Assembly (NCBI GenBank): GCA_020283715.1
Contig: JAIQCW010000238.1
Location: 1-24,422 of the forward strand
DNA from: Cytauxzoon felis
Taxonomy: Eukaryota > Apicomplexa > Aconoidasida > Piroplasmida > Theileriidae
Length of the DNA stretch: 24,422 nt
Direction of reading: 5' to 3'
Below the pieces are notes generated by a model that did not search any database, had not been told where the DNA came from, and was given only the letters and a program-made list of their open reading frames with translations. Position 1 is the stretch's first letter. Every line of letters starts with the position of its first letter. Shown piece by piece: positions 179 through 20,912 of this stretch. Position numbers and translations under genes: made by a program.

Positions 179-1684
179 ATGTCGGAAAAGGGTGGAAGTG
201 ACGGTATAAAGAAGGCAGCTGCCTTCTTAGGAGGATTTATTCTTCCATTTCCTCTATACATAGTGGTTAATTTCTCTTCATTTGCCGTTGAAAGATTCCA
301 TCTACCACCAGATAAGATACCGTTATTCATCAACAAATTCTTCAGTTCTATGGAAATATCATGTTTAGTTGGTATGATGATCACATGTGCAATTGTTGTA
401 GTACTTAAAGATAATTCTTACATCCTATCAATCGTCAATATATGGCTCTTCTTCATTGTAGTTGTTATATTATTCGAGAATTATAATCATGGAGGTGATT
501 TCGGGAATATTAGCTTATATTACTGGATGGTGAATGTTTTAGGATTTGTATTAGGATATAATTATATCAGTAGCGCAAAGGTTTCGTCTGGAGAGGGACT
601 TTTTGTTATCCTTGGTCGATCACTCTCGGGGATTGTAGTCGTGATTTATCAAATGGGATTCTATTATATAGGATCCTATTATGGATTAGAGGATTTAGGC
701 CACCGGATGTTCATTTGGTTCTTTATTATGCTAATAATCGTTTCACTCTCCGCAGCTATAACCTGGACAGTCGGATACAAGGGCGGGAGTGGAAGTGATG
801 GAAGCTCTACGAAGAAATGTTGCTGTTGTTGTACATCATGCACGGAACAATGTTCCCATGAATGTACATGTTCCGAAAAATGTAATCAAAAGTGTTGTTG
901 CTGTTGTTCATCTTCTACATGTGAATCTAAAGACAAATGTTGTTGTTGTAAGAGTGATAGCAGTAGCAGCGGTGATGGTAGCATCGGCGAACTTATCCAG
1001 GAACCTCAAGCTATATCAGCCTTATTAATGTTCCCTATTAGCAATCCAATAGCTTATTCATTCAATCCATCGATTGCTCCATATCAATTCCTTGGTCTAG
1101 TAGATGGTTATAAGGTATCACTATTAGTTACATTCACAACATGTATACCATCATGTGTTTTCACTATATTAAAGTATGGAGTAGATGGTGGTAAATATGC
1201 ACCAGAGAATAAATGGAAATGCTGTTTAGTATATTACCATATGGCATGGTGCGCAATGTTGCCATTACTTTCCGCTGCTGTCATATGTCTAATTATGCTC
1301 CACTACCCATACTGTAGAATCTCTAGATACTTTTACAGGACTAAATTCAGAATATACCTCTTGTCTGTAACACTACAGCTCAGCAATGAGGTTATGTTAG
1401 GGATAGGAATGGGCGGTGTAGGAAATCAAGGCTGTAGTAGTAATGGTACTTTAGCAGCATTAAGTTTGTTACTAGCCTTCTTGACATTAGTGATTGGAAT
1501 GTTCATTTCAGATGGATACTTGAAGACTTATAGGAGATCCGATAGGGATCATTGGCCAACTAAAGGTTACACTAGATATAGGGGATTCAAATTTTGGTTT
1601 GGTAGTGGCGTAAAGGAGGCAAGAAAAACATTTAGAGAAATATTCACAAGAGATATGAGAAAACTACTCATGTTGTATGAATAA
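179..1684 (+). CDS. Multi-pass membrane protein with poly-cysteine loop
   Basis: This is an intronless 501-residue protein that starts at the first ATG after a short AT-rich leader. Hydrophobic segments lie near residues 13-34, 57-76, 81-99, 113-131, 140-164, 177-199, 279-296, 311-332, 349-374, 391-409 and 424-443, giving about eleven spans. Six spans, a long soluble loop and then five spans is the layout of equilibrative nucleoside transporters. It is also typical of piroplasm multi-transmembrane families (Tpr/Tar, mtm), but I see no diagnostic motif for any of them. The loop (about 200-275) has 20 cysteines within residues 214-257, including two runs of five and one of four, framed by Gly/Ser-rich stretches. 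The C-terminal tail is basic and probably cytosolic. The cysteine cluster could be palmitoylated or bind metal; that is inference. The lack of introns sets it apart from most neighbours. Function unknown. Confidence 0.8.
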   Translation: MSEKGGSDGIKKAAAFLGGFILPFPLYIVVNFSSFAVERFHLPPDKIPLFINKFFSSMEISCLVGMMITCAIVVVLKDNSYILSIVNIWLFFIVVVILFENYNHGGDFGNISLYYWMVNVLGFVLGYNYISSAKVSSGEGLFVILGRSLSGIVVVIYQMGFYYIGSYYGLEDLGHRMFIWFFIMLIIVSLSAAITWTVGYKGGSGSDGSSTKKCCCCCTSCTEQCSHECTCSEKCNQKCCCCCSSSTCESKDKCCCCKSDSSSSGDGSIGELIQEPQAISALLMFPISNPIAYSFNPSIAPYQFLGLVDGYKVSLLVTFTTCIPSCVFTILKYGVDGGKYAPENKWKCCLVYYHMAWCAMLPLLSAAVICLIMLHYPYCRISRYFYRTKFRIYLLSVTLQLSNEVMLGIGMGGVGNQGCSSNGTLAALSLLLAFLTLVIGMFISDGYLKTYRRSDRDHWPTKGYTRYRGFKFWFGSGVKEARKTFREIFTRDMRKLLMLYE

Positions 1685-2304
1685 ACACACGAATTGTATT
1701 TATAAACACATCAACTCAATGTAATATAAGATTTTAAACGCAGTCAATTGTCATTAGACATATTTAATTTAATCTATTATTTACTTATAGATCACTCTAT
1801 ATTCAATCTCTTTTAGTCCTGCCGTCAGCTCTTTTATTTACTTCCCCCTCCGCTTCCCTGAGATCAGCTACGGGTTCCACTTGAGGTCTAGTACTAACCA
1901 CCTTCATCGTAACCTTCCTTTCCATTGCATGGAGCCTTCTCTATTTAGTTGTCCCTCCGCTTCCCTGAGATCAGCTACGGGTAGTCCACTTCCACTTGAG
2001 GTTACATCCAACACGTCCTTAGCACAATCTTCCATCATTCCCATGATGGATGATCCATCACTACCTTCTTCACTACCTTCACTTCCGCCACGATCTCCGG
2101 GAGTGGCTTTACTCTTTAGAGATAGATAATTAAAAGAGCTGACGGCAGGATGGACCTCAGGTGGAACGCCTAGTGGAAGTGTATTTTGATTGTAACCTCA
2201 TGTGTATAGCTCTCTGCAAAACCAACGGTCGACTAACATCAGGTTAGCATCATTTATATAAAATGAATTTATGGTGATTAAATTTATTTAATGACATTAA
2301 TTTT
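1685..2304. other. Convergent 3' intergenic region carrying a repeat element
   Basis: This is the space between two convergent genes, the membrane protein (+) and the GRAM/VASt gene (-). Both edges are AT-rich and unremarkable. The middle, about 1817-2180, is clearly more GC-rich and is a copy of the dispersed element described separately. No gene is supported: the 82-codon frame on the plus strand is antisense to the element's peptide-like frame. Confidence 0.7.
1817..2150 (-). repeat. Dispersed element copy A with inverted ends
   Basis: This is a 334-bp GC-richer block bounded by a perfect 20-bp inverted repeat: 1817-1836 is the reverse complement of 2131-2150. Read on the minus strand it encodes most of the peptide module found inside the neighbouring GRAM/VASt gene (key words YLSLKSKATPGDRG, SSIMGMMED, VADLREAEG). 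The frame is broken once near the middle. The stretch around 2004-2066 differs from 6434-6496 inside that gene at about one base. It lies some 150 bp beyond that gene's stop codon, in the same sense. No target-site duplication is obvious. The edges may extend to about 2180. Confidence 0.75.
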
Positions 2305-5300
2305 TCATCGGTTATAAATGAGGTAGAGTGGATTGAATTTGAGATTTTTGAAATACCAGAGAATGCTACCGATACCGATTATAATAATTAATTTTTTATA
2401 ATTATGGTAATCATTAATGATTACATCTTGTTTAATTGAGATATTATTATTATTATCACGTGTATATTTATCATGGCAGAGTATTTTTACTGCATTATTG
2501 AATTTTTTAATAGCTTCATTTGTGATTATATTATTGAACATTGTAAATTTATTGAAAATCACATTACATTCTACTCTAATATTAATGTATGGATTATTAT
2601 TAATCTCTAATTTAGTAGCTGTAATACGAAATATTGTATAGAATAATTTACAAAAGGGTAAATTATCTACATTATTTATACTCTGATATATAAAGATTTT
2701 ATTACCTATCAATGCATACTTAATATCCTCATTTGATATACCATTTATACTCTTGATGAATTTTAAACTGGAATTGTTATTAATTTTAAATCTATATCGT
2801 AATTTTCTATTTTGATATTGTATTCCTTCATCCTTTACCCCATTTTCATCCTTCACCCCATCTTCTTCATCACCCCATATAAATTCAACATCGTCTAAAT
2901 CACCCTTGAAATCAAATGCTAAATTATCCAATCTAGTTTGACATATAGGTGATGTATGATGTATATTTGATTTAAATCGATGAACGAAATCAGATAATTT
3001 TAAATTTATATTGTCATTGAATATAATAAAAGGTAATGGCTCCAATGTACCGAAATATGACTCTAATTGCACCCTATATTTAATCATACTCGTATCATAT
3101 CCACTCGAGGTTATAACCTTGTCTCCATCTGAGGTCTTCCACTCGCCGTGGTGGCTTCTTCCCTTTACCTCCCCTTCCAGCTCCCGTAGATCGCTTCCAG
3201 GTGTCAATTCATCAATAGATTTAGATAATACATTATAAATCCTCTTTATATTCTTGAGTGAATAAAATATATACTCGTCTCCATTCTTTAAAATTATTCT
3301 CATTTTATACGGCAATACTTTATTCGGCCTCAAAATTAATAAATTTACATCGTATATGCTAATTAATACCCTAGTATTGTATCCAAAAATATTATTGTCA
3401 TTAAAGGCTGAATAGAAACCAATCGAATCTTCCGTAATGTACATTGTACCATGCAACAATATCTTTTTTACCAATGCACACCTAATCTCGTGATTTACAG
3501 CCGCCTTTAATCCCAATTTACTCAAAATTAACGAGCTTCTCAACAACTTTGATGATGACGGAAGAGGATGTTCCGAACGTAGTGAGGGAAGTTCCGAGTG
3601 CAACGAGGATGAAGGATATTCCGAGTGAAACGAGGATGGTGGAGGGAGATGGGATGAAGGTGGTGGGAGGGTAGAGGTGGTGCATGGAACATCAGGTGTA
3701 TTGATTTCATTCGTGGTATTGATGATCTTCGATGTATTGATTGTATTCGTTGCATTCGAAGTACTTCCTGACTTCTCATCATCCATAACTACCCTCCCTC
3801 CAACATCCAAATGTGTAATTGTATTAACATTAGATAATCTATACCAGGGATAATAGTTTTCATGACCGTCCATAAACTTAATAAATTTAGCAGGAAACCA
3901 ACGATTAATTATATTTTTATTGGGATAATTAACCCCACATACCCCATCATTCTGCCCCACATCATCAGAATGGTTTGTGATGACATGACCATACCATAAA
4001 GGAGTACATCCGGCGATTTTGACATGTATATAATCACCTTTTTTAAATGAAAAGTTATATTTATCTTCTTTATAATTAGCATTGGATATAACAATCATTT
4101 CAATACCCTTGAATAATTCATTAATAGTATAACTTGTATTAATTGGCTTAATGTCATGCAGAAATTTAACCTGTTTCAATTCATCTGTACCTATAAATGG
4201 TACTAGTATATTTATCCAATTATCATTATCATTATATATACCTATACACTCATCACATAATAATACCGATGATTCTATACATGAATGTATCATCCCATCT
4301 ATTATATCCTGTATCCCAATCATCAACTCATCTCTATCATCTGAATCATGGGGCTGAACCCCACTATAACGCTTAAAGTAGTGTTCATGGGGTTTTTTAA
4401 TGAATGATGATGGGAATATTGTTGATATGAGGTTATATAAATTATAATAATGAAGCTCTTGGGTTTTATGATGATTCATTAATATAATGAAGAAGTTATA
4501 AATTGATGAATTACCAATTTTATAATCCTTGAAACTATTACAATTTGATAATTTACCAAATCTATTATGATGATAACGATACATTTGATAACACACATCA
4601 CGAAGATACTCATATACCCTCTTTATAGTAGAACGGAGTGAAGAAAATAGTTCCGACGAAGGAGGAACTATCGACGAGCGTAGCGACGAGGGACGAAGTT
4701 CCGAATGAAATGAGGATGGACCTTCTGAACGTAGTGATGAGGGATGTTCCGAACATAGTGAGGAACGAGGAATTTTCTCCGATTGTAATGAGGAAGAAAG
4801 GAATTTTCTACGAGTATAACGAGGAAAATTCTTCGAGGAAGGAAAATTCTCCGAGTGAAGCGAGGGAGGAAAATTCGTCGCAGTAGGAATATTCTCCGAT
4901 TGTAATGAGGAAGATGGAAGATGACTACCTTCAGGATGACTATTTTCAGGACGTGAAGTATTTTCAGATGGACATTCATCACATCGACTCTCAGAACTAC
5001 TTTCATCACATTGACCCTCAAAATGTAATTCACCCTTGGTTGATATATCAAAATTACAGAAATTCAACACCTTCTTCCCACTTACTCCCTCACTTCCTCG
5101 GTCGTCGTCAGTGTCTTCGACACTTCCTCCTCTTCCTCCTCCTATGTCGTCGGACGATCCATCTTCAATGATATAGGCGTTGAATAAATTACCTAGAGAT
5201 ACATTAACGTTTAGAAATAATATACAGTAATCAACTAGATGATTTATAGAGTGTTGTTGTAGTGTATAAATATTATTTGGATAATTTAATTTGAAATCAT

Positions 5301-7167
5301 TCAATAAATTAATCATATCTGAATCAAATTTATGTATACCATCAATTGTAATATCATATTGATAATGTACAACACTTAATTGTTCAATATAATTAGTATA
5401 ACGTATAAAATCACGTGAATCATTAAATAATGACATGATTAATCTATAGTTTTTTTCACGTGTCTTATTATTACCATTACCAGTACATTTACAATATTTC
5501 AATACATTATTAATACTCTCTATAGAGTCATCCATCTTGTCCAAATTCAAAGTTGCAGCCCCATTATTTAATGAAAATTTCTTTATAGAGTCATTCATCA
5601 TCCCCAACTTCAAAGTTGCAGCCCCATTATTTAATGAAAATTTCTTTATAGAGTCATCCAAATTCTTCTCAAGCTTATTCAATTTAGATAAAGATTTATT
5701 ATAATTATAAATTATAGTTGAATATTTATTTATATACTTCTTTAAATTAAATTTCATATCATATAATAACATGTTCGTCCTTAATAACAACTCATTTAAA
5801 TCATTTAGAATATTATTTATCATAACATCAAATTTATTTAATAAATATATCTCAATATTTAATAATTCCATAATAAATAATAATAACCTTTCTAAATCTA
5901 TAAATAATTTATATAATAATTTTATATTTATATCATCATTATAACCACTATAATTTTCCATAGTACTAATAAATCCATCATCAATATTTATACAATCCAA
6001 TGACCATACATCATCTAATGATATACTCAAAGGTAAATTATACTCTTGCCTTAAAGTTTTAAAATACATGAATGAATTAATACATTCATTCCTATCATCT
6101 GATGAAGAATTACAAACTGAATCCAATGATAGATGAAGATCGAGAGTTCCATCACACTCAGTCGCTGATACAACTGAGGTCTTTCCACTAGGCGTTCCAC
6201 CTGAGGTCGTCCTGCAGACAGCTCTTCTATTTACTTCCCCCTCCGCTTCCCTGAGATCAGCTGCAGGTTCTCCACCTGAGGTTACATTCAACACATCCTT
6301 AGCACCATCTTCCATCATTCCCATGATGGATGATCCATCACTACCTTCTACTCTTCCACTAGGCGTGGAGCCTTCTCTATTTAGTTGTCCCTCCGCTTCC
6401 CTGAGATCAGCTACGGGTAGTCCACTCGAGGTTACATCCAACACATCCTTAGCACAATCTTCCATCATTCCCATGATGGATGATCCATCACTACCTTCTC
6501 TACCGCCACGATCTCTGGGAGTGGCTTTACTCTTTAGAGATAGGTAATTGGAAGAAGCCTCCACGGCAGTGGGATCAGAGGATGTAACCTCGGTGGAGAT
6601 CTGTTCTTCCGGGTTAACATATTTAGTTTCTCCGGGTAGAATTCTTGTTCTTAGGGGTTGAACATCTCCGTTCTTCCGGGTTGACAAATCCTGTTCCTCC
6701 TCATTAACTTCGCCACGATCTCCGGGAGTGGCTATGCTCTTTAGAGATAGGTAATTAAGAGAGCTGACGGCAGGACCAACGGTGGAGGCGAGTGGAACAG
6801 ACGTGGATTGAACTTCAGGTGGAGAACTTTCAGCAAGATCTATTGTCGATATCCTGCCGTCAGCTTCTTTATTTATTTCCCCCTCACGCTCCCGTAGATC
6901 GCTCTCGGGTGTTTTATTTGAGGTTACATCATCTGTATCTTCAACAGTTCCATAATACTTCTTCAAATGTATTTTGATAGTATCAATTCGATGTAAGAGT
7001 TCAAGTGATGTATTAAATACACTTGTATTATCTAAACGTTGTATATCTTTAGTATGCGATAAAAGATAAGGTAATCTATCAATAATACGTTTAGAATTTG
7101 TATAATTTAATTCATAAACCTTTTCTAAGAATAATAAATTACTATCAACATTTAAATTAAGAACCAT
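2305..7167 (-). CDS. SH3-GRAM-VASt membrane-anchored protein, Lam/GRAMD1-like
   Basis: Intronless, 1,620 residues. The open frame extends five codons upstream to a TTG, but the first ATG is at 7167. Residues about 1022-1098 look like an SH3 fold (FSFKKGD, PLWYGHV, RWFPAKFIKF). About 1210-1320 reads as a GRAM domain (GTMYITEDSIGFYSAF, then an ISIYDV strand). About 1360-1570 fits a VASt/StART-like lipid-binding domain. One hydrophobic helix near 1590-1610 ends the protein. GRAM-VASt-TM is the order of Lam/Ysp/GRAMD1 (Aster) proteins, which move sterols at ER contact sites. The helical region at about 420-665 could be a divergent BAR-like domain, but I cannot show it. Linkers are filled with repeats: element-derived modules near 100-350 and about 1325-1350, a 21-residue tandem repeat near 505-548, and Ser-Ser-Leu-Arg-Ser-Glu-like runs near 755-850 and 1175-1205. 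Lipid transfer is inferred from domain order. Confidence 0.75.
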   Translation of the reverse strand: MVLNLNVDSNLLFLEKVYELNYTNSKRIIDRLPYLLSHTKDIQRLDNTSVFNTSLELLHRIDTIKIHLKKYYGTVEDTDDVTSNKTPESDLREREGEINKEADGRISTIDLAESSPPEVQSTSVPLASTVGPAVSSLNYLSLKSIATPGDRGEVNEEEQDLSTRKNGDVQPLRTRILPGETKYVNPEEQISTEVTSSDPTAVEASSNYLSLKSKATPRDRGGREGSDGSSIMGMMEDCAKDVLDVTSSGLPVADLREAEGQLNREGSTPSGRVEGSDGSSIMGMMEDGAKDVLNVTSGGEPAADLREAEGEVNRRAVCRTTSGGTPSGKTSVVSATECDGTLDLHLSLDSVCNSSSDDRNECINSFMYFKTLRQEYNLPLSISLDDVWSLDCINIDDGFISTMENYSGYNDDINIKLLYKLFIDLERLLLFIMELLNIEIYLLNKFDVMINNILNDLNELLLRTNMLLYDMKFNLKKYINKYSTIIYNYNKSLSKLNKLEKNLDDSIKKFSLNNGAATLKLGMMNDSIKKFSLNNGAATLNLDKMDDSIESINNVLKYCKCTGNGNNKTREKNYRLIMSLFNDSRDFIRYTNYIEQLSVVHYQYDITIDGIHKFDSDMINLLNDFKLNYPNNIYTLQQHSINHLVDYCILFLNVNVSLGNLFNAYIIEDGSSDDIGGGRGGSVEDTDDDRGSEGVSGKKVLNFCNFDISTKGELHFEGQCDESSSESRCDECPSENTSRPENSHPEGSHLPSSSLQSENIPTATNFPPSLHSENFPSSKNFPRYTRRKFLSSSLQSEKIPRSSLCSEHPSSLRSEGPSSFHSELRPSSLRSSIVPPSSELFSSLRSTIKRVYEYLRDVCYQMYRYHHNRFGKLSNCNSFKDYKIGNSSIYNFFIILMNHHKTQELHYYNLYNLISTIFPSSFIKKPHEHYFKRYSGVQPHDSDDRDELMIGIQDIIDGMIHSCIESSVLLCDECIGIYNDNDNWINILVPFIGTDELKQVKFLHDIKPINTSYTINELFKGIEMIVISNANYKEDKYNFSFKKGDYIHVKIAGCTPLWYGHVITNHSDDVGQNDGVCGVNYPNKNIINRWFPAKFIKFMDGHENYYPWYRLSNVNTITHLDVGGRVVMDDEKSGSTSNATNTINTSKIINTTNEINTPDVPCTTSTLPPPSSHLPPPSSFHSEYPSSSLHSELPSLRSEHPLPSSSKLLRSSLILSKLGLKAAVNHEIRCALVKKILLHGTMYITEDSIGFYSAFNDNNIFGYNTRVLISIYDVNLLILRPNKVLPYKMRIILKNGDEYIFYSLKNIKRIYNVLSKSIDELTPGSDLRELEGEVKGRSHHGEWKTSDGDKVITSSGYDTSMIKYRVQLESYFGTLEPLPFIIFNDNINLKLSDFVHRFKSNIHHTSPICQTRLDNLAFDFKGDLDDVEFIWGDEEDGVKDENGVKDEGIQYQNRKLRYRFKINNNSSLKFIKSINGISNEDIKYALIGNKIFIYQSINNVDNLPFCKLFYTIFRITATKLEINNNPYINIRVECNVIFNKFTMFNNIITNEAIKKFNNAVKILCHDKYTRDNNNNISIKQDVIINDYHNYKKLIIIIGIGSILWYFKNLKFNPLYLIYNR
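3117..3206 (-). repeat. Partial dispersed element between GRAM and VASt domains
   Basis: A GC-richer in-frame block that encodes a diverged form of the element's DLRE-LEGEV motif. It contains a CACTCGCCGTGGTGGC stretch also seen, with small changes, at 6560-6575 and in the MCM8 last intron. It falls in the linker after the GRAM domain, so the folded domains are spared. Confidence 0.6.
3555..3650 (-). repeat. Ser-Ser-Leu-Arg-Ser-Glu minisatellite, short tract
   Basis: Imperfect tandem units around GTAGTGAGGGAAGTTCCGAG (plus strand) encode S-L-R/H-S-E words on the minus strand. The same unit recurs at 4630-4905 in this gene and in the long intron of the phosphodiesterase gene. It lies in the linker between the SH3-like and GRAM domains. 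Confidence 0.65.
4630..4905 (-). repeat. Ser-Ser-Leu-Arg-Ser-Glu minisatellite, long tract
   Basis: About 275 bp of imperfect units built on TTCCGAACGTAGTGAGGA (plus strand), encoding repeated S-S-L-R/H/Q-S-E words with interspersed F-P-S on the minus strand. The reading frame stays open throughout. This gives a long polar, probably disordered linker between two helical regions of the host protein. Confidence 0.7.
5525..5660 (-). repeat. 63-bp tandem repeat encoding 21-residue units
   Basis: GAGTCA anchors at 5525, 5588 and 5651 are exactly 63 bp apart, giving two full units and the start of a third. Each unit encodes 21 residues beginning DSIKKFSLNNGAATL. The period is a multiple of three, so the frame is kept. 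It sits in the helical, asparagine-rich region of the GRAM/VASt protein. Confidence 0.85.
6207..6912 (-). repeat. In-frame cluster of dispersed element copies (B-E)
   Basis: The N-terminal quarter of the GRAM/VASt gene carries several element modules. The TCCTGCCGTCAGCT-like end occurs near 6209 (degenerate), at 6759-6775 (inverted) and at 6855. Two copies of the SSIMGMMED...DLREAEG module lie at about 6230-6350 and 6375-6500. Two YLSLKS...TP-DRG modules lie at about 6505-6550 and 6710-6755. All are read in frame as protein, so this stretch looks built by repeated insertion or unequal exchange of the same element. Confidence 0.75.
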
Positions 7168-7713
7168 TTTATGATACCACAAGGGTTATTAAATTTATAA
7201 AATTAATGTAAAACTGCATTTATATAGAAAATACATTTTACAATAAATAAATAAAAATACTAATATACATGAAAATATAATTTTAAAAATTTATATACAG
7301 TAAAAATAAATTAACGTCTCTTAACTTTTATGATCCAATACAACATAAGCTTCATATGATACGTACCATTATATAAATTACACTATATATAATTAATATC
7401 TTATTTAGATCCAATTATAATTTAATATAAATATTTTAATATTAATTTAATTTAATATTAAATTATATACATTTTATAAAATTTTTATATTTTAATCTCA
7501 ACGTTATGATCTTCTACCATAATCAACACATCTAAACCACTCTAATTTAAACACATTATCTACTTGAAACTTAATATATAATAATATTCTATTATTAGAT
7601 GCTTTAATGTAGCAACATGTCATGATAACCCATAATTGATGTGTTGACTGAGCTTAAATGACATCACTTAAATAACATTAAATAAGATAGTTTACATGCA
7701 TAAAATACACTAA
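7168..7713. promoter_or_regulatory. Divergent promoter region, GRAM/VASt gene and bS18m
   Basis: A 546-bp very AT-rich spacer between two start codons pointing away from each other, so both promoters must lie here. CATGCA at 7695-7700 is TGCATG on the minus strand, a known ApiAP2 recognition core in Plasmodium, and lies just before the bS18m start; relevance here is inference. I see no further gene. Confidence 0.5.
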
Positions 7714-9066
7714 ATGTTTCTATATTTACGGCATTTTGCCTCCAAAGCATCTAAATTAAAACTAAAGGATAATAATGTCTCTAAAAATTTTGAGCTGCTC
7801 TTTGGTAATACACAAAATAAAAAGGTATAGACTCAAATGATATAATAACATACTTCAATAGATAAGTAAAGAAGGGACATTTGATGCACTTTATCAAGAA
7901 TGTATGTCTGATATATATAAAAGGAGAGCAGAAGCTGATGATTATTCTGATGAAACTAAGGAATCACCTGAAATCGCAGAGTTAACAGCTAAAGAACTTC
8001 AAATTACACGTTCTATATTCAAGAGAGTTGATCCTTTAAAGAAGGTAAAATTTCATATATACACATTTATTCATTAAAATTTAGCTCGTACCGAGACTTG
8101 AGAATAAAGATGATTATATTGATCCTTATTGGGATCCATTTAGGAAAGTTGACAATTTGAAGATACAATTAGCCTCTGAATTCACTGATTTAGCAAGGTT
8201 AGTATGAAATATACTTAACATCAGACTCTAATTCTCTATTCCACAACGACTATTTTGAGTCTTCTACTATAATCATACCTCATTCAATTCTTACTTAGAT
8301 TGGTTAGTAGTGCAGAAGCGCGTAAATATCGAATGATGATACGTGAAACCTTACAGCAACATGAAAAATTTTCTCATTCATCATATGTTGATGATAAAGA
8401 GGTATTTTTATTTATATAAATGAATTGAGTTCATCTTAATAGGATGATGAAGATATAAAACCACATGATGTACATGAACGTTTTTGGGATCCTGATATTG
8501 ATAAGAGATTGGTATTGCGTAATAATCTTCGTCCATTCTGCTGGAGAGGTATAGTATTATTATATGACTTCATTAGATATATAACAATAGATCTACATGT
8601 ATTACATAATTTTGTTGCTGAAAATGGTCAAATACTACCTAGAAGATTAACTTTTGCTACTAGGAAACAACAACGTCAAATTTTCAAGGCTATTAAAATC
8701 GCAAGACAGATGGCATTATTCCCTTATGATTGGCGTCCTCGTTATAGGGATAGAATACCATTAATGGATCCTAGACAGGTGATTATAAATTTTTAATCTT
8801 GATATATTTATATAGTATTTGGCTGATGAATTATATCATCGTTACAAGACTTTTGGTGATTTAAGAGCAAAGGCTATGATAAATATTATAATGAAGAGAT
8901 ATCCAGATGTTAATAATTTTAGGTGAGTATAATAGTGATTATTTGATGTATCAATTATAGATATTTAAGATATGAAGCTAAGAAATATGAACAATACATT
9001 AAAAATAAGGATGATATAGACTTTGCTTCAATATTAAATGATTATAAGAATAATAATAATGATTAA
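7714..9066 (+). CDS. Mitochondrial small-subunit ribosomal protein bS18m
   Basis: Seven exons (7714-7824, 7862-8044, 8085-8197, 8299-8401, 8443-8778, 8816-8922, 8961-9066) join in frame to 352 residues; all junctions are GT/AG. Residues about 193-270 match bacterial-type S18: RPFC near 200, then ILPRRLT near 235 followed by a basic helix and ARQMALFPY near 257-265. The first exon begins MFLYLRHFASKASKLKLKD, a basic amphipathic leader typical of mitochondrial import, so I place it in the mitoribosome rather than the apicoplast or cytosol. Bacterial S18 is about 75 residues, so the long N- and C-terminal extensions are lineage-specific additions, as is common in apicomplexan mitoribosomes. Exon boundaries are read by eye; the S18 core within exon 5 is certain regardless. 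Confidence 0.85.
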
Positions 9067-9464
9067 TAATATATTTAATTTATAATGAACTTTGGTGTGT
9101 ATAGTATATATGACCCCAACCCCTACATGTGTAGAGTAATAGGATATATATAAGTAAGAGGTGTAATGATAAAATTTAAATCTAGACATAATTTGTTGTA
9201 TATGAAATAATTATATTATTGTTTAAATCATGATATAATTTTATATATATTTAATAAAATGTGTAAAATTATTATACTGTATTGGATAATATTTAATGTA
9301 TTATAATAGATAACAAGAGTATAGACATGATACACATTATAATTAATTCAATATTTATAAACTGTAATTGTTTATTAACATATATTATATTTTAAAAGTG
9401 ATTATATATATGTCTTTTCTTTATTTTAAAAAAAAATAATCATCTTCAACCTAAAAAAAAAGAA
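9067..9464. other. AT-rich intergenic spacer
   Basis: Between the bS18m stop and the phosphodiesterase start, both on the plus strand. It holds poly-A/T runs and simple TA-rich stretches and presumably includes the PDE promoter. No ORF, RNA gene or repeat element is apparent. Confidence 0.6.
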
Positions 9465-11770
9465 ATGACAAGGGACTCAATAAAATCCGCGATATCGGAT
9501 CTTGAAAGTTTCTTAAAAACAGAATGTAATGATGATAATGTATTAAATTCATTTACATTAATAAAAAATACATTAGCATCTTTATTTAATTCTAGATTGA
9601 ATTATAATATCTATAATGTACCAGATATTATAGCATTGACTCATGATGCTAAAACTGGCAATCCTAATAATAATAATACATTACCATCCATGATTGATAA
9701 TATACGTAATTTTGTTAATAATATTGCATCTTCATCAATATTTTCACAAACATGTACAAATTTATTAAATTGTAAATTAAAGACTGGGGATGATGATGTT
9801 AATGCATCTGATGATAAAAAAATCTTTATAAATACATCTTCATTCAATAGGAAAGCTATTAATGTCGTATATGAAACTAATGGATGGACTATTGGTAAGA
9901 GTAGACGTAATGTACCTATTGATGAAGAGAATTTAGATTTTTATATGAAACAATTAGGATGTAATTGGCATCTTGATATAATTGGTCTATCTAATTTACC
10001 TACTATACTTCATGATGGACCATTATTTTCAATGGGTAAATATTTATTACAACCCGTGGGTGATAAAATTCATCCCACATTTAATTCATTATCATTACCT
10101 GTATTACGTGATTTACAAGATATATATCTACGAAATCCATACCATAATGCACTTCATGGTACATTGGTATGTTGAAGTTACTTTGAATCACCTTCTTTTC
10201 AATCACCTTCTTCTATAGGTTGGACATATGTCTGTAGTACTTTATAAAGCAATTTGTTCTGAACCGAGGTACCTTTTTTTTAATAAAATTCCCTGATAAA
10301 CTTCCCCCAGATTTACAAATTACGAAGAGTTTGGTTACATTTTGGCTGCATTAGGCCATGATGCTGGACATCCTGGTATGTTGGATGGAAGTTTATACAC
10401 ACTACACACCTCAATACAGGAAAAACAAATGCATTTTTATCGTCGACTGGGAATCCATTGGCATTAATATATAATGATAATAGTATCTTGGAGAATTATC
10501 ATTCATCATTGATATTCCATATAATGCGTTTACACGTGCAGTTTTTCAATTTGATACCACCAAAGGAGTGGGAAAAGTTACGTAAACGCATGATACAGTT
10601 GGTATTATCTACAGATATGTCTAATCACTTTACCCATATTGATAATATAAAGGTAAATTTATTGTGGTTGAATATTAATATTTAGAATCGACGCTTAAGT
10701 GGTGAATTTGATATTAAAAATGATGATGACTTTTGGCTGCTGTTAGTCTTGTGTATAAAGACTGCAGACATTGGTCATAATTTTTTGCCATGGGTCGATC
10801 ATATAACGTGGACCCATGTATTATTTGAGGAGTTTTATTTGCAAGGCGATGAAGAAAGATTTTTATCAATGCCCCTATTATTATTTTTCGATCGTACCAG
10901 AGCAGCCGATATACCAAATTCACAACTAGGCTTCTTTAAAGGATTTACAGGGGTATGTTGATGTTATGTTACGGAGTGAATCCCCGAGTGAAACGAGGAT
11001 GATGAACGCAGTGAAGACTACCGAAGGTATGACTGAAGAGTAGTGAAATGGCAGGAAGTGGACGTCAGTGATTGTCATTATTTCCACATGACATTTCATA
11101 CCTCACTTCCACCCTCACTTTTCTTTCTTTCTTTCTTTTTTTACTTCCCTCTTCGAGGAATTTTCCCCACTCCTTCTTCCCCACTTCAATCGGAGAATTT
11201 CCTTTTCTTCTTCTTTCTTCTTTCTTCTTTCTTCTTTCTTCTTTTTTTTATTTCCCTCTTCGAGGAATTTTCCCTCCTTACATCAATCGAAGAATTTTCC
11301 ACCCTCATTTCATTTGGAGAATTTTCCTTCCTCGAAGAATTTTCCTCGTTATAGTCGTCGAAAATTCCTTCCTCACTTTGTTCGGAGTTTCCTCCTTCGT
11401 CGGACAATTTTCATCCTACATTGAAGAATTTTCCTCGCTCCTCACTATGTTCGGAACTTCGTTTGAAATTCCTTCCTCACTACGTTCGTCATCTTCACTT
11501 CACTACGTTCGTTGGCAACAACACCTCCTCCTACGTCGTCGGTACCTTCGTTACACTCAGTTCCACTTCGCTTCATCCCACTTTCAGCCTCTATTGGACG
11601 AGTTGATAATGTACGAGACGGATTCAAAGTTTATATCGCGTGTATTATCATTCAATGCATCGGAGAATTTGGAGTTATGGAAAGGTTGTAAATCTAGAAA
11701 GATAGAGGAGATTGTAGAGGATTTGGACAATGCAAATGAGACTTATCAAGTTGAGGATGCATTTATTTAA
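9465..11770 (+). CDS. Class I cyclic nucleotide phosphodiesterase
   Basis: Six exons (9465-10166, 10219-10268, 10311-10375, 10420-10652, 10686-10952, 11588-11770) join in frame to 499 residues. The catalytic domain covers about residues 170-460 and would hydrolyse cAMP or cGMP. The metal site is complete: H231 in YHNALHG (226-232), H267 and D268 in HDAGHPG, and D378 in KTADIGH. Also present are TDMSNH (337-342), an EEFYLQGDEE helix (398-407), and the invariant purine-clamp glutamine at Q430 (SQLGF). One difference is ENYHS near 297-301, where many PDEs have two adjacent histidines. I see no membrane span, unlike several Plasmodium PDEs, so it is probably cytosolic. Nucleotide preference cannot be read. 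The fifth intron is 635 bp, versus 33-52 for the others. PDE opposes cyclases in PKG/PKA signalling. Confidence 0.88.
10953..11587 (+). repeat. Repeat-filled 635-bp intron of the PDE gene
   Basis: The donor follows residue 439 and the acceptor is CTTTCAG at 11581-11587. Reading through from exon 5 meets TGA after two codons, so it must be spliced. It contains ACGAGGATGA/AACGCAGTGAAG units near 10980-11010, oriented opposite to TTCCTCACTACGTTCGGA-type units near 11340-11515; these are the minisatellite of the GRAM/VASt gene. Between them lie (TTTC)n near 11120-11140, a (TTTCTTC)n polypyrimidine tract near 11205-11250, and two diverged copies of a TTCCCTCTTCGAGGAATTTT block (about 11143 and 11262). 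A long plus-strand open frame (from 11072) crosses it but is compositionally repeat, not gene. Confidence 0.75.
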
Positions 11771-11848
11771 TTATAAAAGTGATTATCGCAATGTATATAT
11801 ATTTTAAATGGGGGAAAAAAATTCACTAGTAAATTTAAATTAAAATCA

Positions 11849-12738
11849 TCATCTTCTTAATGTTTTTCTATCAGATGTTAGATGGCTCATGTTATTATTA
11901 CGTGTAATACGATTATTGGAACCTGATGATTGTATAGGACGTTCTTCCTCAATGACTTGTTTAGTAACACTACCTATAATATAATTATTGACAGTAATTC
12001 ATATATAAATTTACCATCAGGATGTGTAGTTGTAATTTCTTTACGTACAAATACTTTATTATTAACAACTCTTGTTGTTGTAGATGTAGAAGAAGATGTG
12101 AAATTACGTGAACTACCAGATGAAAAAGATTGCGATACAAATGATTGAATATGATCATTAAACATTGATGAGTGACCAAAATCATCAAACATATCATCAA
12201 ATATATCATGCCTTCTAGAATATGATTTTGAAGATCCATGTTGAAAAAAATTATCATCACCACCAAAGAATAAACCAAATGGTGAACTAAAATATAAAAT
12301 TTATAATAAATTAAATTATAAATTAACATACTTTCCACCAAATACCATATTAAATACTCTTTGTGCATCAGCAAAATCAAAATCATGATGTCTCTTTGTA
12401 TAATTAAAACCTCCATCCATATCATCAACAGTTCCAGTAGCTATAATAATATATTATTAATTTATTAATTATTATATACCATCATATCTATTTCTACTCT
12501 TCTTATCAGATAAGACCTGATATGCTTCTGATATCTTCTTAAACATTTCTGTAGCTCTATCTTTATCACCTTGATGTTTATCTTTAATAATTATAATTCA
12601 TATTAAATAAATTATTATAAACATACCAGGATGCCATTTTAAAGCTAAATTTCTATACTTTTTTTTAATAGTCTCATCTGAATCATTAGGTGAAACACCT
12701 AAAACTGCATAATAACCCAAAGGATCATTTGATACCAT
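11849..12738 (-). CDS. J-domain co-chaperone, DNAJB6-like
   Basis: Five exons on the minus strand (12627-12738, 12480-12581, 12332-12440, 12015-12286, 11849-11973) join to 239 residues. The J domain occupies about residues 6-72, with helix [12 protein letters not shown], and the HPD motif at 36-38 needed to stimulate Hsp70 ATPase. An intron splits the Asp codon, so HPD appears only after splicing. Then come a Gly/Phe-rich segment (FFGGDDNFF), a Ser/Thr-rich stretch, and a C-terminal motif ([16 protein letters not shown]...VIEEE) that resembles the beta-strand region of DNAJB6/DNAJB2. There is no zinc-finger region, signal peptide or membrane span, so a cytosolic or nuclear Hsp70 partner acting on aggregation-prone proteins is likely. 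It converges on the PDE gene with only 78 bp between stops. Confidence 0.85.
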
Positions 12739-13075
12739 TATAAATACAAAATAAACAATATAAAATTACAATATATAATATTAATAATATATAATAACAA
12801 TAAATTTATAATAATAATAACCTCCTATGAGGCAAATACTTGGGATTATTTACAAAATGATAAACACACTACAGTTATATTCAATTAATCACCCCTCTAT
12901 TATAAATAATGATATCATCTATACAATATTTTCTATATTCATATAGTTTTTATTTATATCCTTTTAATATTTATATATTAAAATTCATATTTATATATAA
13001 ATTGACTACACATTCAATATTTATAACATTTTAATGTATATTTAACCTTCTATAACTAAATATACCTTTATCGCA
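12739..13075. promoter_or_regulatory. Divergent promoter region, J-protein and MCM8
   Basis: A 337-bp AT-rich spacer between divergent start codons. Both promoters should be here. I find no clear motif, ORF or repeat element beyond TA- and ATA-rich runs. Confidence 0.45.
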
Positions 13076-16000
13076 ATGCTTTATTCTGAAGATATTATTA
13101 ATTTACTCATTCAATTATATTTTTCAAACCATGAGATAGGTATAATAATATATTATTCATTTTTTTTATTATCATAATCCTTAGTACATTCTTCAATACC
13201 TGAGCATATAGATCCATGGAGAGAATTTTTCTTTAGATATTGGAATGTATTAATAAATCCTGTAAGTATAATCATATTATCCTATTATAATGTAATATCC
13301 ATAGGTTAAGCATAGTTTCTTTGAATTACATGAGATAAAATTAGATTATTTACAATTATTAGAATTATGTGTCCCTCCTTCATTAGAAAAATTTAAAAAG
13401 GATCTATATACTAATCCTGGATTAATATTATCTACTATGTCTGCAGCATTACATTTGGAAACATTATGTTATTTATATAATAGATCTAATGAATTAGATC
13501 AGATACTTACAAATGAGGAATTAGAAGAGATAGATGTATCATGGAGGAATGATTTATCTAAAATAAAATTTGATTGTGAATTAGGTCATTATATAAATAA
13601 ATGTAAATTATCAAATTATATATCATTAGATGAAGTAAAATTTTATCGTGTTACTATAAGATTAGAAAATTTTACTCCTACATTACCATTTAGTTCATTA
13701 AGAAGTCATACTGTTGGTTGTATAGCATGTATACGTGGACAGGTTGTTAGGATTGGACCAGCAAAACCATTAATATTATCTGCATTATTTACTTGTTATA
13801 AATGTGGTAATAGTTTTTATAAAAATTTTATTGATGGTATATATGATACACCTTCTATATGTATTAATCGTGATTGTGATTCAAGATTTTTCCAAATACA
13901 ACGTCATTGTGTTGAAACTATAAATCATCAGATGATAAGGTTTGATTGATTGACTTTGAAAGAAAAAGATATATATATTATTGATTTAGACTTCAAGAAG
14001 AAAAAAAGTGTAAGGACAGATAGACCAACAGATCCAGCATCTAATGCATTATTAGATATTGAGGTATGGTTATATAATTTGAAATTAAACCCTCCCCTTC
14101 AGTTAAAGGGTAGCTTAGTTGATAGATTTCATCCTGGTAGTTTATTACAAGTTGTAGGAATAATACAAGCTACTACATCACATATTGATAATGTAGCATT
14201 ACAAAAATCTATGTATACTATATATATAAGTGCAATATCAGCTGTAGTATTGAATAAAAAATCAGATACACAAAATAATAATGAATATGTATGTTGATTG
14301 AATAATAATTTATAAACTACTAAAGATTAATAAAGGAGGTAATAAATCAATAGCATTAGCGAATTGTATAACTAATGATATGTGGAAGGTATAATGAATG
14401 AATGAATGATATGGATATTAATTTTATAGATTTATAATATAAAAGATGAATCTCCTATTAATTTAGATATTGGTATGACATGTACACCAGATTTACGATG
14501 GCATAAATATGAGAGTAAGGATAAAAATTCAACTTCTATAGAAAATCCTTACAATGATGTAAATAATATATATTTTGAATTTATACGTGATATATATTAT
14601 AATGAACCAAATAGATTTTATTTGGTAGCTGCATCATTATTTCCTCGTGTAGTTGGACGTCATTTTGTTAAAGGTATATTTATAATTGTATGGATATACA
14701 TCTTAATATAGCTGGACTTTTATTAACATTACTTGGTGGTGTATCTATATATAATGATGAAAATATATTAAAACATCGTGGTAATGTACATTGTTTATTA
14801 GTTGGTGATCCTGGTGTTGGTAAAAGTTTAATGTTACGTAGTTTATGTAGTCCATTAACTGGTAGTTACTTTTTTTCTGGTGGTACAATAACATCTAGTG
14901 GTTTAACTGCAGCTGTTGTTAGAGATAATGGATCTAATGAATTTACATTAGAAGCTGGTGCATTAGTATTAGCATCTGGTGGTGTTTGTTGTATAGATGA
15001 ATTGGACAAAATTACATCTATAGAACAACAAGCATTTCTAGAAGCTATGGAACAACAATTTGTTTCTGTAGCTAAAGGTGGTATTGTTAGTACATTAAAT
15101 GCACAATGTACTGTTATATGTGCATCTAATCCTGTTAATGGGAAGTATAAGTATATTTAATTTATCATTAACATCATTGATATATTATATTAGTTCAAGG
15201 AAGACTTTATCTGAGAATTTAAAATTATCAACACAATTACTCAGTCGTTTTGATTTAATTTTCCTTATGATGTAAATTGTAATCATCAATACATGAAATG
15301 TTATCATATAGTGATACTCCAAATGAAGGACATGATAATCTCATTTCTAATCGTATGTTGAAACAGGTTTGTTTTTTCTAATGGAGAGCAGGAAATGGGG
15401 GAGACACGAGAGAATTTTCTCCTGTATTTTTTTTAAACCTAAACTATTATTTCCAGGAACATGAAATTAAATCGGATAATGTACCGAATTTAAAGTATAA
15501 GATTGAATTATTTAATGTATATTTATACAACTTTTATCACCACCTTCTATATAGACTCATGATTTATTGAATGAGAAATTGATTTATGAATATATAGAGT
15601 ATGCTAAAATGTATATAAGACCTGTATTTACTAATGAATCCAAGAAATTATTAAGAGATTTTTATTGTGAATTACGTAACTTGAGTAAAGATTCTACAGA
15701 TTCATTACCTACAACAACTAGACAATTAGAAGGGATAATAAGATTATGTCAGGTATATTGGAGGGTTGAGGTGTTGAAGAGTATATAAAATTTCAATAGG
15801 CTCGTGCTAGAGGTGATTTATGTGATTGTATAACTATAGAACATGTATATGATGTAATTGAAATATTTAAACATACCTGTTATTATCCTGGATATATAAA
15901 CTCTCTATCCCGTCATGTATATTTGATTTATTTATAAATTCTTTATCATTATTTCCATTAGAATATTAAACGTGAAGAGAAACGTAGTAAATCAAGTACA

Positions 16001-16623
16001 TCAATTGTTACATTATTTGTTAATGCACTGAAGGAAATATTGGATAAAAAAGTGGCATGTGTACCAAATGAAGTATATTTATAGGATTATTATGAAGCAA
16101 ATGCTAATCTATTATAGGAAATGATCGATCTAGCTAAAGAAGTTGCACGCTTAAATAATTTATCTGTACCACCAGATTATATAATCAACCAAGGTAATTG
16201 ACACATACTATATCTTCATTACATCTGAAGTCCCATCCAACTCTCTTCCTCTTGTAGAGAGCTCTCCACTTGAGGTCCAGTACTACTCTTCTTCCACTTG
16301 CCGTGGTGGCCTCTTCCAATTACCTATCTCTAAAGAGTAATGCCACTCCCGGAGATCGTGGCGATGGAATGATGAGTAGTACCGGACCTCAAGTGGAATA
16401 CCCGCAGCTGATCTCAGGGAAGCAAAGGGGGAAGTAAATAGAAGAGCTGACGGCAGGAATTTAACCTCGAGTGGAACGCAAGTGGAAGAGTAGATGATAA
16501 TGATTGGACCTCAAGTGCAGCAGTTGCATTCTCCTTCGTTCACTTTCATTTCATTTTCAATCTTTAGTAAATCATTATGGATATATATTGAAGCAAGGTT
16601 CATATTGGAAGACGAATTTGTAA
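13076..16623 (+). CDS. MCM8: MCM8-like AAA+ DNA helicase
   Basis: Fifteen exons (13076-13139, 13185-13261, 13305-13939, 14009-14288, 14326-14388, 14430-14673, 14712-15150, 15194-15271, 15312-15366, 15457-15516, 15555-15752, 15800-15916, 15962-16072, 16118-16193, 16568-16623) give 850 residues, close to animal MCM8. Four zinc-finger cysteines are C211, C214, C233 and C238. Walker A is GDPGVGKS (486-493), Walker B CCIDELDK (547-554), and the arginine finger LLSRFD centres on R619. ASNPVNGKYN and SENLK...LLSRFD fit MCM8 better than MCM2-7. MCM8, usually with MCM9, works in homologous recombination repair. The join of exons 3 and 4 is uncertain: an acceptor at 13989 would restore the family's Q-E motif (MIRLQE) but then breaks frame at an A7 run. 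The last exon, 18 codons encoding a GYILKQG tail, lies beyond a 374-bp intron holding a repeat element. Confidence 0.82.
16194..16567 (+). repeat. Dispersed element copy G in last MCM8 intron
   Basis: The 374-bp final intron contains a GC-richer block matching the GRAM/VASt-gene element, in the same sense as MCM8. The YLSLKS module is at about 16318-16355, the ADLREAKGEV module at about 16400-16440, and the AGCTGACGGCAGGA end at 16445-16458. A near-perfect 24-bp inverted repeat (16265-16288 against 16374-16397, one mismatch) brackets the first module and could form a hairpin in the transcript. Flanking intron sequence (16194-16230, about 16520-16567) is ordinary. Confidence 0.75.
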
Positions 16624-17262: not shown

Positions 17263-20200
17263 ATGAATGATAATAAATATCAATTAGATTTACAAAAATG
17301 GTTATTTTTGTATTGTTCTCTTACTAATGATCAAAAAAATGAATTAGAATCATCAATATTAATTAAAGAATCAAATAAATTTCATAATAAATCATATGAT
17401 ATAAATTTATTATTAGATAAAAATAAATTAGATTATTGGATAAATATTGTAAATGAATTAAAATTTAGATTTAAATTATTATATATTAATTTAATATGGA
17501 ATCGTTTAGGTCATTCTATTAAATTAAGAATACGTATACATGATACAGATGTGTATGGTAATGATGGTAATCATTCTAAACGTATTCTTAAATTAAAATC
17601 TATGCATAATTTTAGAATGAATGCATATGATCAATCAATATTAGTACGTGATGGTGGTGTTAATACTGCTTTTAATATTGCATTATATTATCGCAATGAA
17701 GTTTTTAATATATTAAATATGATACCACCTAATGATGAAGCTATATTCTTTAAATCAAATGATATATTATCAAGAACTAATCAAAGAAGATCTACTGAAT
17801 TTATATCATTAATTACAAATGTCTTACATTTTAATACACTACATGCCCGTACATCATCTATCAATGTCGATTCTAATGATATTGATACCTTTTTTAATTT
17901 AGTTTCATTAAGAAAAAAACGTAAAATAGAAGATGTGTATATCAATGGTTTCATAGATGAAGAAAAAAAACCAACTTTACAATTGTCTAATGATCTTGCA
18001 CATTCACAACAAGAATTTATACCTCAGTTTAATAAAACTCGTAAAAGATGGAACTTTGAAAAATTAAGAAATTCATTAATACGTGAACCAAAACCATCAA
18101 TTATAAATGCAGTATTTAAAAAATCATTCAAAAATTTACCATTAGAACCTGTAGATGTAGTAATTATTGGAGCTGGTGTATCAGGCTTAGCAGCTGCAAA
18201 TTATCTCAAATTATGTGGAGCATCTATATGTATAATAGAAGGTAGAAATCGTATAGGTGGAAGAGTATTTACAACAACTCTACCTGAACGTAAATTATCT
18301 GATGATTATGTTCTTAAAGAAGTTAATGTAGATTTAGGAGCTAATTATCTTCATTGTTGTAGTATTGTAGGATTTAATAATGATGATGCATTTGATCCAG
18401 CTAAAGATGTATGTAATAGAAGATGCTATTATAAATCATTGCTAGGATTAGCTAAAAAATTAAAACCAAATGTATCTAATGTAGCTGGTGGTGCAAATTG
18501 GGAATCAACATTATACTCCAATTGGTATGATGATTCAACTAGTGAAAAGATTAGTATGCATAGTGTTATTAAAGCTAATATGATTAGTGAAAAGATAAGG
18601 TTACGTGCGGCAAAAAAAGGTTTTCGCATTACGTAAACAATTGAAAGTAGATTTAAGAAAGAGTGCAGATGTATATAATAAATTTGAGGATGACATGAAA
18701 CCGTTAAATAAATGGTACATAAATGATGGTTTATATAAAGAAGTATGTGGTGGTAATTTCAAACATACCGATTATAATAAGTCTGTAGTTAAACAAAATG
18801 GTGATAAAAAATCATTATGGGATATATATCTCGAGGCTACACTAGAAATTTTTAGCGAATTAAATATTAATAAAAAAAATTTACCAATATAGAATGGAAA
18901 TTATTATTTATTATAATGCAGTCTAGATTAGGTTATAATAGTGATTTACGTGAAACATGTATATCAATGTGTAGACTTCCATTAATGGATGATGAACTTG
19001 ACTCGAATATATCATATCTCAATAGAAGTAATGTAATGATGTATGAAAATTATGTTAAATCTACATTTGATTCATTAAATCAAGCAAATGTCACCCCATT
19101 TAATGGTAAGACTGATTGTGATAAATTAGTTATTGATGGCTGGGATTGGCTTTTAAAACATTTATCCAATACACTGAAAGATGACTTGTACCTCGGCTCC
19201 AAAGTTACTGATGTCATTTTAGATGAGGGAGGCCTGAAAGGAGGGGAAGTGAAGAATGTGGGTGGAGTGGAAGATAATGTCAACTCTATTAATGGTAATT
19301 ATTCCACTTTGAAATTTAATGAAAATGTCAATCACCCAATTATCGTCAGGGTAGTTGATTCTGAGCATCAGCAAATGGAGCATCGTATAGTTAGAGCAAA
19401 GTATGTGATTGTGACGGTACCAAGTGTATTGATTTCATCATTGGATTCATTGAAGTCGAGAAAGATGCGGGAAAAAAATAAGATAAATTTTATACCACCA
19501 TTAGATAAATATAAATGCAAGGCTATAAATCGTTATAAAATGGGTCATCATAATAAGGTATTATTAAGATTTGATCCAAGACAGGTATTTTGGCCAAAGA
19601 ATGAGTTACAATTTAATTGTTTGGATAATTCATTCCAATTTATGAATTTACATTCATATGGTAAAGAGGGTTGTATATTAGCTCATAGTTTCCCACCATT
19701 TTCAATAAGATGGAGTGGTATAGATAAAGATGAGATAATTGTTAAGACATGTCTTGATTTATTACAAAAAATGTTTTCTATACCATCAGATAAAATGCCA
19801 TATCCAATAGATTCTATAGTTACACGATGGTTTAGTGATCCATATTCTGGTGGTTCATATTCATATCCAGATGTGGATGCTGTTGAGGATGATATTATAC
19901 ACTTAAAAAGTCCACATCCAAAAAAAAATCCTCGTATATTATTTGCAGGAGAATATTTATCAAATAGTTATTATCAATGTGTAGATGGAGCATTTGATAC
20001 AGGTATACGTGCAGCTGAAGATATAGCACATCTTGGATTAAATAAACCATATCCATTTGAAATTGATCCCGATACACCATCACTTGAGGGATTACTTAAT
20101 CCAATGTATTCTGATAAATATTTAAATCTATCAGTACCAATACCAGATATACAACATTTAGGATATTACCTAACAGATGGTAGTGATGAGATACTTACTG

Positions 20201-20912
20201 ATACTAGATTTTCAAATATTATTCCATATGGTCTTGAAGACTCTACTCTCGAAGATGGCACCACTGCTATTAAAAACGAGTTGGATATACTCGAAAATGT
20301 TCAAGACATATTATCTAAAGATTTTGTTTCTATTAAATCACTTGAAAGATCAATTGATGATTTGAAGGCACAATTTGATAAATTAAAGCATGAAAATCGC
20401 TACAATAAACATTTATACACAGCTCAAATACTTGTAGAGGCATTTTGGAAATCATGTAATGAATATAAACTTGATGTTAAGTCCGATGAATTTAACGTTA
20501 GAAATCAGCATTTTAGTAATCGGGTATGTAAAAATGCACTAGATTCCATTGGAATTAAGCATGAGATTGTATGTTGGTCATGTTTAAGGGGTGGAGAAGT
20601 AATTATATGTGATTATAAAGATTGTAATAAAGTTTGGCATTTGGAATGTTTACCAAGGAAAAATAAGAAGCAATTGAATGCTAATGAATGGATATGTCCA
20701 ACATGCAGCGGGCATCAAGTTAAAGTGAGTTGAAGTATATATAATTTATATTCAAATATATATAGAGAGGTGAAAATGCTGCGGATGAGGCTATACAATT
20801 TTATTGGCATCGTCGTGGTAATTGGTGGCGAGTCAAGGCATTGATATCATTATGTCGTAGAGTATATAAAAGAATTAAATATTGTAGAGATAAATTAGAA
20901 AATTTAGAATAA
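17263..20912 (+). CDS. LSD1/KDM1-type amine oxidase with C-terminal PHD finger
   Basis: The FAD fold starts at VDVVIIGAGVSGLAAANYL (from residue 297), with the GxGxxG motif and GGRVF near 335. LSD1 hallmarks follow: NKV with K765 at the position of the flavin-contacting lysine, SDPYSGGSYSY near 858, and the second FAD motif LFAGEY...GIRAAEDI near 890-925. A Cys4-His-Cys3 PHD finger sits at 1104-1148 (C1104, C1107, C1116, C1121, H1126, C1129, C1145, C1148). One 41-nt intron (20725-20765) leads to a basic last exon, for about 1,202 residues. The first 290 residues are unrecognised; I see no clear SWIRM domain. The frame shifts at an A7 run (18612-18618) and returns at an A8 run (18872-18879), and the shifted part reads as sensible protein. 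Role inferred: nuclear FAD-dependent lysine demethylase guided by PHD reading of histone tails. Confidence 0.8.

Follow-up and report, generated by a model that had tools for sequence, protein, structure and literature searches.

Miniature inverted-repeat transposable elements (MITEs) and foldback elements are non-autonomous, dispersed sequences with inverted repeats. The Rickettsia palindromic elements are small palindromic families that lie both between genes and in frame within unrelated metabolic genes (PMC10969869). The GC clusters of yeast mitochondria are GC-rich palindromic mobile units of an AT-rich genome that fall into classes, are partly arranged in tandem arrays and are mainly non-coding, and they also occur in the VAR1 protein gene and in rRNA genes (PMC4464245). 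Here we describe a dispersed repeat built of short hairpin modules that was first noticed in a 24,422-nucleotide stretch of the Cytauxzoon felis genome (assembly GCA_020283715.1, contig JAIQCW010000238.1, positions 1 to 24,422 of the forward strand; this whole stretch is called the window). We consider it probable that the family consists of non-autonomous hairpin cassettes, transparent to translation, which have spread within a nuclear piroplasm genome and work like the Rickettsia palindromic elements.

A survey of apicomplexan genomes reports LINE-like and Gypsy-like elements in some Apicomplexa and no transposable elements in C. felis, Theileria parva, T. annulata or T. orientalis; MITE candidates were dropped there as likely false positives, and repeat models with more than 40% aligned with annotated exons were removed, hypothetical proteins not being considered (PMC9141347). 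This exon-overlap filter could hide families like the present repeat, which bears on the scarcity or absence of mobile elements reported for Theileria and Cytauxzoon (PMC9141347). Listings from the open literature on piroplasm and apicomplexan repeats and genomes, as distinct from subscription journals and preprints, show no comparable repeat described from a piroplasm.

Results

The genome scanned comprises 8,623,106 bases in 181 contigs (8.62 Mb) and is compact and FAINT-rich, with 145 matches to the Pfam family FAINT against none in 14 control genomes; we take this family as a pointer to piroplasms of the Theileria/Cytauxzoon type. The original prediction held that one module recurs at four sites of the window, two of them in frame in a GRAM/VASt protein, once just past the stop of that gene and once in the last MCM8 intron. 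Shared modules were found at all four (families D1-D4 and inverted pairs I2-I9), and genome-wide pattern searches with up to three mismatches, each controlled by the reversed pattern, returned thousands of matches, decisively more than a few sites only: 2,532 for variant 1 of module B, 1,123 for its sister variant 2, 1,917 for module D and 457 for the C core (peptide SSIMGMMED). None of the reversed patterns matched, which rules out chance or low complexity as the origin of the matches, and no site was counted for both B variants because their patterns differ at 11 places (our own count). The density of B is about one per 2.4 kb of genome, where a composite unit may contain more than one B. 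Coverage by 14-mers that at least five loci have in common amounts to 5.3% in the window and to 5-25% in six 10-kb stretches of contig C37, the latter figure being biased upward because five of the six stretches were picked for exact C cores.

The anatomy of the repeat was read by eye from 46 aligned copies and 26 B-D pairs, among which a few have a D in common. A unit of about 190-350 bp is a mosaic of short hairpin modules in the order E shell (TCCACYTGAGGT), one of the interchangeable end modules P, Q, R or T, an AT-rich arm, B, E, an optional C and D, followed by a loop hairpin and then by an inverted arm, an inverted end module and an inverted E. Most modules are able to form a small hairpin, and D approximates an inverted B by eye. 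Counted as copies, not as independent events, the loop stem (CTC/GAG, CCC/GGG or CCG/CGG) is fully paired in 119 of 124, with two-arm changes in 22 copies, 19 of them fully complementary, and a one-sided change in 2 of the 24 deviating copies; the R stem is paired in 133 of 147, in the two opposite forms GCC/GGC (89 copies) and GGC/GCC (44 copies), and has one broken pair in the other 14. Units fold better than shuffled sequence, as a palindromic, stably folding repeat would, with mean DNA fold z scores of -2.8 for 6 exonic units and -2.7 for 17 non-exonic units against -0.3 for 26 control stretches.

By eye, the E shells and arms of the two sides are inverted copies of each other, and the end modules of the two sides match only at chance level. 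They assort independently: end modules could be typed on both sides in 95 of 101 units (up to three mismatches) and are the same in 35 of the 95, for a shuffled mean of 32.9 (P = 0.35). This free assortment is unlike the fixed ends that a transposase binds, and it is a point against an ordinary MITE with target-site duplications, mobilised by a trans-acting transposase, to which the inverted ends, the small size and the thousands of dispersed copies would otherwise be well suited. Target-site duplications were not seen, and the survey of 64 apicomplexan genomes found no DNA-transposon genes (PMC9141347), Y1_Tnp alone having been tested here; we regard such an element as unlikely.

A Pfam scan of 26 repeat-bearing open reading frames (ORFs), in which L012 overlaps L011 (L numbers are our locus handles), gave a match at the threshold of E 0.01 in 11 and none in 15, with L035 and L067 below the curated cut-off. 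The hosts that can be named are mutually unrelated: prolyl-tRNA synthetase (L006), isoleucyl-tRNA synthetase (L060), Vps33 (L025), an SMC hinge protein (L028), a CW zinc-finger protein (L011), a FAINT protein (L027), a helicase/PHD protein (L041), a PSME4-like protein (L043), a midasin-like AAA protein (L063) and an Nrap-like fragment (L067). To judge from alignments with solved homologues, the repeat appears as a clean insert in two of them. In isoleucyl-tRNA synthetase, residues 106 to 120 of 8c9e face query residues 251 to 486, an insert of 234 residues where the homologue has 13, with the modules at 311-453; in Vps33, residues 213 to 222 of 4bx9 face query residues 236 to 451, with the modules at 332-388. 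The modules of prolyl-tRNA synthetase also lie between two matched parts, a less clean case because the bacterial enzyme carries a region peculiar to it at that place, and in L028 and L043 the homologue match ends before the repeat, which is possibly inserted inside the domain. In-frame peptide stretches are thus supplied to many unrelated genes, as the original prediction expected of a source of protein linkers, and its proposal that the family can be exon or intron holds genome-wide, where exonic, intronic and intergenic copies all occur.

How genes come to tolerate the repeat is suggested by its core consensus (about 180 nt, end modules excluded), which is stop-free over its full length in one of six frames, on the strand complementary to the one in which the C core is given; on the other strand, one frame is open for 56 codons and then meets a stop. 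Among 41 copies selected on DNA alone, ORFs of at least 300 codons contain 14 in the open frame and one in the opposite orientation. The same frame and orientation are used in 28 of the 30 ORF rows of at least 300 codons that contain modules, the other two (L043, L072) being on the opposite strand, where the rows stand for fewer genes because some loci overlap and the frame is partly forced because stops on the coding strand leave few alternatives. The stop in the other orientation is probably why that orientation is rare. A search with the peptide, in which 150 of 3,375 candidates were scored, gave open frames of 63 to 3,670 codons among the matches listed, about 54 of about 150 having at least 300 (hand count).

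Adjacent modules form 137 pairs. In 44 of these an ORF of at least 300 codons contains both modules, and all 44 are in phase, a state nearly forced by their definition; the informative point is that in none of the 137 does just one of the two modules lie in such an ORF. Codon position also distinguishes the classes. Mismatches in the exonic copies (n = 14) are rarer at position 2 (58/813) than at the others (97/826 and 100/825; Fisher P = 0.0002), whereas non-exonic copies have no codon-position effect (position 2, 197/1651; P = 0.30), and 21 of 37 exonic indels are multiples of three versus 25 of 78 in 26 non-exonic copies (P = 0.015), both effects being upper estimates because the open-frame requirement itself removes some mutations. 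These patterns argue against the view that the ORF copies are untranslated introns that happen to be stop-free, as do the ORFs of 1,000 to 3,670 codons that span copies. To be sure, intronic copies exist in MCM8 and L015, and by eye L045 is alike, and from the sequence some ORF copies could be stop-free introns; as a general account, we find this very unlikely.

The 60 C-bearing copies used for identity comparisons (17 exonic, 43 non-exonic; part fetched by peptide similarity) have a median pairwise identity of 0.882, and the nearest neighbour has a median identity of 0.944 (94.4%) and a maximum of 0.965. The original prediction had read copies that differ by very few bases as a sign of recent spread. 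Such similarity is found only in short stretches: the longest direct pair in the window is 91% identical over 124 nt, the 60 copies include neither a near-identical pair nor a burst of such copies, and average divergence is higher among exonic than among non-exonic copies; a very recent spread is not supported. Homogenisation by gene conversion among copies is plausible.

The same divergence figures bear on a further explanation, namely that the repeat derives from a genuine protein segment of a gene family, the exonic copies being the functional ones, from which intergenic and intronic copies decayed or spilled over. The frame that is open along the whole core consensus and the weak position-2 constraint of exonic copies would be in line with such an origin. 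So would the phase of the module pairs other than the 44, which are in phase in 57 of 93 cases where one third is expected (P = 5e-8), an excess that could stem from a coding source or be merely inherited with the spacers. However, non-exonic copies are not more decayed than exonic ones, whether by mismatch to the consensus (8.3% versus 10.3%) or by within-group identity (0.894 versus 0.860), and most sampled modules lie outside ORFs of at least 300 codons (92/127 B, 31/49 C and 61/80 D), a rule that misses shorter exons. The nameable host genes are unrelated and folding is alike in the two classes, and we consider a protein-segment origin quite improbable.

Some copies lie at corresponding places of related genes. 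The paralogous genes L073 and L076 (about 75-77% identical in DNA) each have a copy 3' of them; the element is about 90% identical and the downstream flank 77%, and the L073 element is equally close to several unrelated loci. The window gene that ends at 1684 is related to the L073 gene (25% identity, E 2e-53), and all three related multi-membrane-span genes have a copy past the stop, oriented alike with respect to the gene. The diverged paralogues L015 and L045 have units of different module make-up in apparently the same intron: in L015, removal of 1316-1692 (377 nt) joins two open stretches, and L045 (from about 2854) has a similar intronic arrangement by eye. The one-orientation copies 3' of three related genes, together with the two-sided stem changes, might indicate that selection acts on the hairpins themselves, for instance as a 3'-end or chromatin signal that gene conversion maintains, with the exonic copies as tolerated leakage. 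This seems clearly unlikely, as copies occur in ORFs, introns and intergenic DNA alike and the window has no Rfam match at gathering scores. The same Rfam result rules out a known structured RNA.

The features of the window are collected in Table 1. Both predicted in-frame runs lie in the uninterrupted GRAM/VASt ORF, and the copy just past its stop lies between that stop and the stop of the convergent multi-membrane-span gene. Pfam places GRAM at residues 1227-1316 of this ORF, above the cut-off, and VASt at residues 1450-1554 with 24.7 bits, below the cut-off of 27. The longer run encodes the peptides YLSLKS, DGSSIMGMMED and DLREAEGEVN, with B at residues 92-101, 256-265 and 306-315, C at 233-242 and 283-292 and D at 147-158 and 216-227. 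The partial copy encodes part of the GRAM-VASt linker, its module B being residues 1328-1337 in the stop-to-stop frame and 6 less in Pfam-match numbering. Neither this ORF nor the multi-membrane-span ORF had protein homologues among about 8,000 scored candidates each.

The predicted copy in the last MCM8 intron (about 16307-16458) is present and extends further than proposed. When 16193 is joined to 16568, the reading aligns with solved MCM8 (7wi7, E 1.2e-20; query 3-179 of 185 against chain residues 600-773 of 787), with 12 residues past the junction, which supports the splice. The alternative placement of this copy in the 3' flank, with the frame meeting the TGA at 16198-16200, is ruled out by the alignment of the spliced C terminus with MCM8.

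Table 1. Features of the 24,422-nucleotide window
Feature	Position	Strand	Remarks
Multi-membrane-span gene	179-1684		
Intergenic composite copy	1817..2172	+	between convergent stops 1684 and 2305; order P (TCCTGCCGTCAGCTC), B, spacer, T, B, E, C, D, loop hairpin, inverted P, inverted E; C module TCCATCAT-TCCC-ATGATGGA; loop hairpin CTC-TTTA-GAG; DNA fold z = -3.1
GRAM/VASt host ORF	2305..7185	-	about 1,626 codons; open across both repeat runs
Partial copy (E, R, B variant 2)	3100..3206	+	in GRAM/VASt ORF, read on minus strand
Second repeat family (TTCCGAACGTAGTGAGGAA type)	4630..4915		in GRAM/VASt ORF; further runs 3571-3655, 11125-11580
Tandem duplication	5517-5642		63 bases, 90% identical, in frame in GRAM/VASt ORF
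Composite, several complete and partial copies	6174..6931	+	in GRAM/VASt ORF, read on minus strand
Preceding MCM8 intron	between 16073 and 16118		44 nt
Last MCM8 intron	16194..16567	+	374 nt
Copy without C (R, D, E, B, P, flanking E shells)	16265..16494	-	in last MCM8 intron; DNA fold z = -4.5
Last MCM8 exon	16568..16623	+	ends ..VNHYGYILKQGSYWKTNL stop
LSD1-like protein	18916-20730		

Some further observations concern the same genes. A second, smaller repeat family (TTCCTCACTACGTTCGGAA type) has 49 genome matches at up to two mismatches (control 0) and 31 candidates in a DNA search; it is likewise read in frame, as runs of the NFPSSKNFPSSLRSE type, in the GRAM/VASt ORF and also, judged by eye, in isoleucyl-tRNA synthetase (L060) and Vps33 (L025). 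Another dispersed module (TTCTTCCGGGTTAACA type) is mixed into the exonic composite at 6600-6700 and also occurs in L019. Fragments near the last MCM8 exons recur as decayed duplicates just downstream of the gene (16038-16083/16657-16702 and 16574-16625/16902-16953). The LSD1-like protein has four relatives in a protein search, three of them named (Nephromyces, Plasmodium cynomolgi and Babesia microti).

Discussion

Our results lead us to favor a translation-transparent passenger whose insertions would land widely, those within genes surviving where one orientation and frame reads through. The product of such read-through would be a hydrophilic and probably unstructured linker. Spread and reshuffling might proceed by hairpin-primed template switching, ectopic recombination, gene conversion or an unrecognised transposase. 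The free assortment of end modules and the mostly two-sided stem changes would be consistent with repeated template switching, or with gene conversion, between hairpins, and the copies 3' of L073 and L076, where the element is closer than the flank, may fit the same processes. A host function would not be required, and new linkers would arise as a by-product.

Several observations weigh against this reading. In a comparison of 65 loci (264,027 bases), none of the 842 gap pairs combined module-free flanks with a module-bearing gap, as an empty site would, and no target-site duplication was seen at element ends that are fuzzy. Y1_Tnp has no match in the genome, other transposase families being outside the search, and RVT_1 matches at a single locus (C56:73693-74436, in a 1,010-codon frame), which could be telomerase. 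The fold z ranges of non-exonic units (-6.7 to -0.7) and control stretches (-2.0 to 2.1) overlap. The exonic and non-exonic classes are related, though in part distinct: the nearest neighbor is non-exonic for 11 of the 17 exonic copies, and it is of the same class for 46 of the 60 (shuffled mean 35.3, P = 0.003). The sites shared by L073 and L076 and by L015 and L045 suggest old resident sites with turnover, not fresh insertion everywhere. The in-phase excess of the non-exonic module pairs and the ORF copies that could be stop-free introns belong to the same side of the balance.

Protein-invading repeats are known from Rickettsia and from a yeast organelle. If the proposed passenger lifestyle is true, the present repeat would be a nuclear example, with module copies in the thousands, and would offer a natural system for studying how proteins come to tolerate hairpin DNA as part of their sequence and perhaps, later, to use it. 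It would also account for odd inserts in conserved enzymes that are met during piroplasm annotation.

With regard to origin, a 34-base module pattern had no exact match in a scan of one genome per prokaryote species, which would miss distant relatives. A prokaryotic, viral or plasmid origin was rejected on the basis of exact-pattern scans and of blastn against plasmids, neither of which gave a match, and a REP/RAYT-type transposase was rejected on the Y1_Tnp result.

Compared with the Rickettsia palindromic elements, the present repeat likewise combines stable palindromic folding with in-frame insertion into unrelated conserved genes through a preferred frame. Unlike them, it resides in a nuclear eukaryotic genome, has thousands of module copies in place of dozens, is composed of modular units with interchangeable ends and also occupies introns. 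By analogy, it appears to work like a Rickettsia palindromic element without being a member of that group, given its apicomplexan host and the lack of a sequence match. The loci of the repeat carry MCM8, LSD1-like, midasin-like and SMC genes, which we take to be nuclear, and are in this respect not mitochondrial. The yeast GC clusters, as far as their source describes them, differ in residing in an organelle genome, in their size of 30-80 bp and in their number of about 120 per genome, whereas the present units are nuclear and enter many host proteins. With MITEs and foldback elements the repeat shares its non-autonomous, inverted-repeat and dispersed nature; it differs from them in its combinatorial ends, in that no target-site duplication was seen and in that no partner transposase is known in Apicomplexa, according to the survey (PMC9141347). 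Taken together, these comparisons lead us to speculate, with somewhat less than even confidence, that a nuclear eukaryote has independently evolved the Rickettsia strategy at a far larger scale, with transposase-free, combinatorial hairpin cassettes that are open in one core frame, which lets insertions into genes survive, and that write linkers into housekeeping enzymes.

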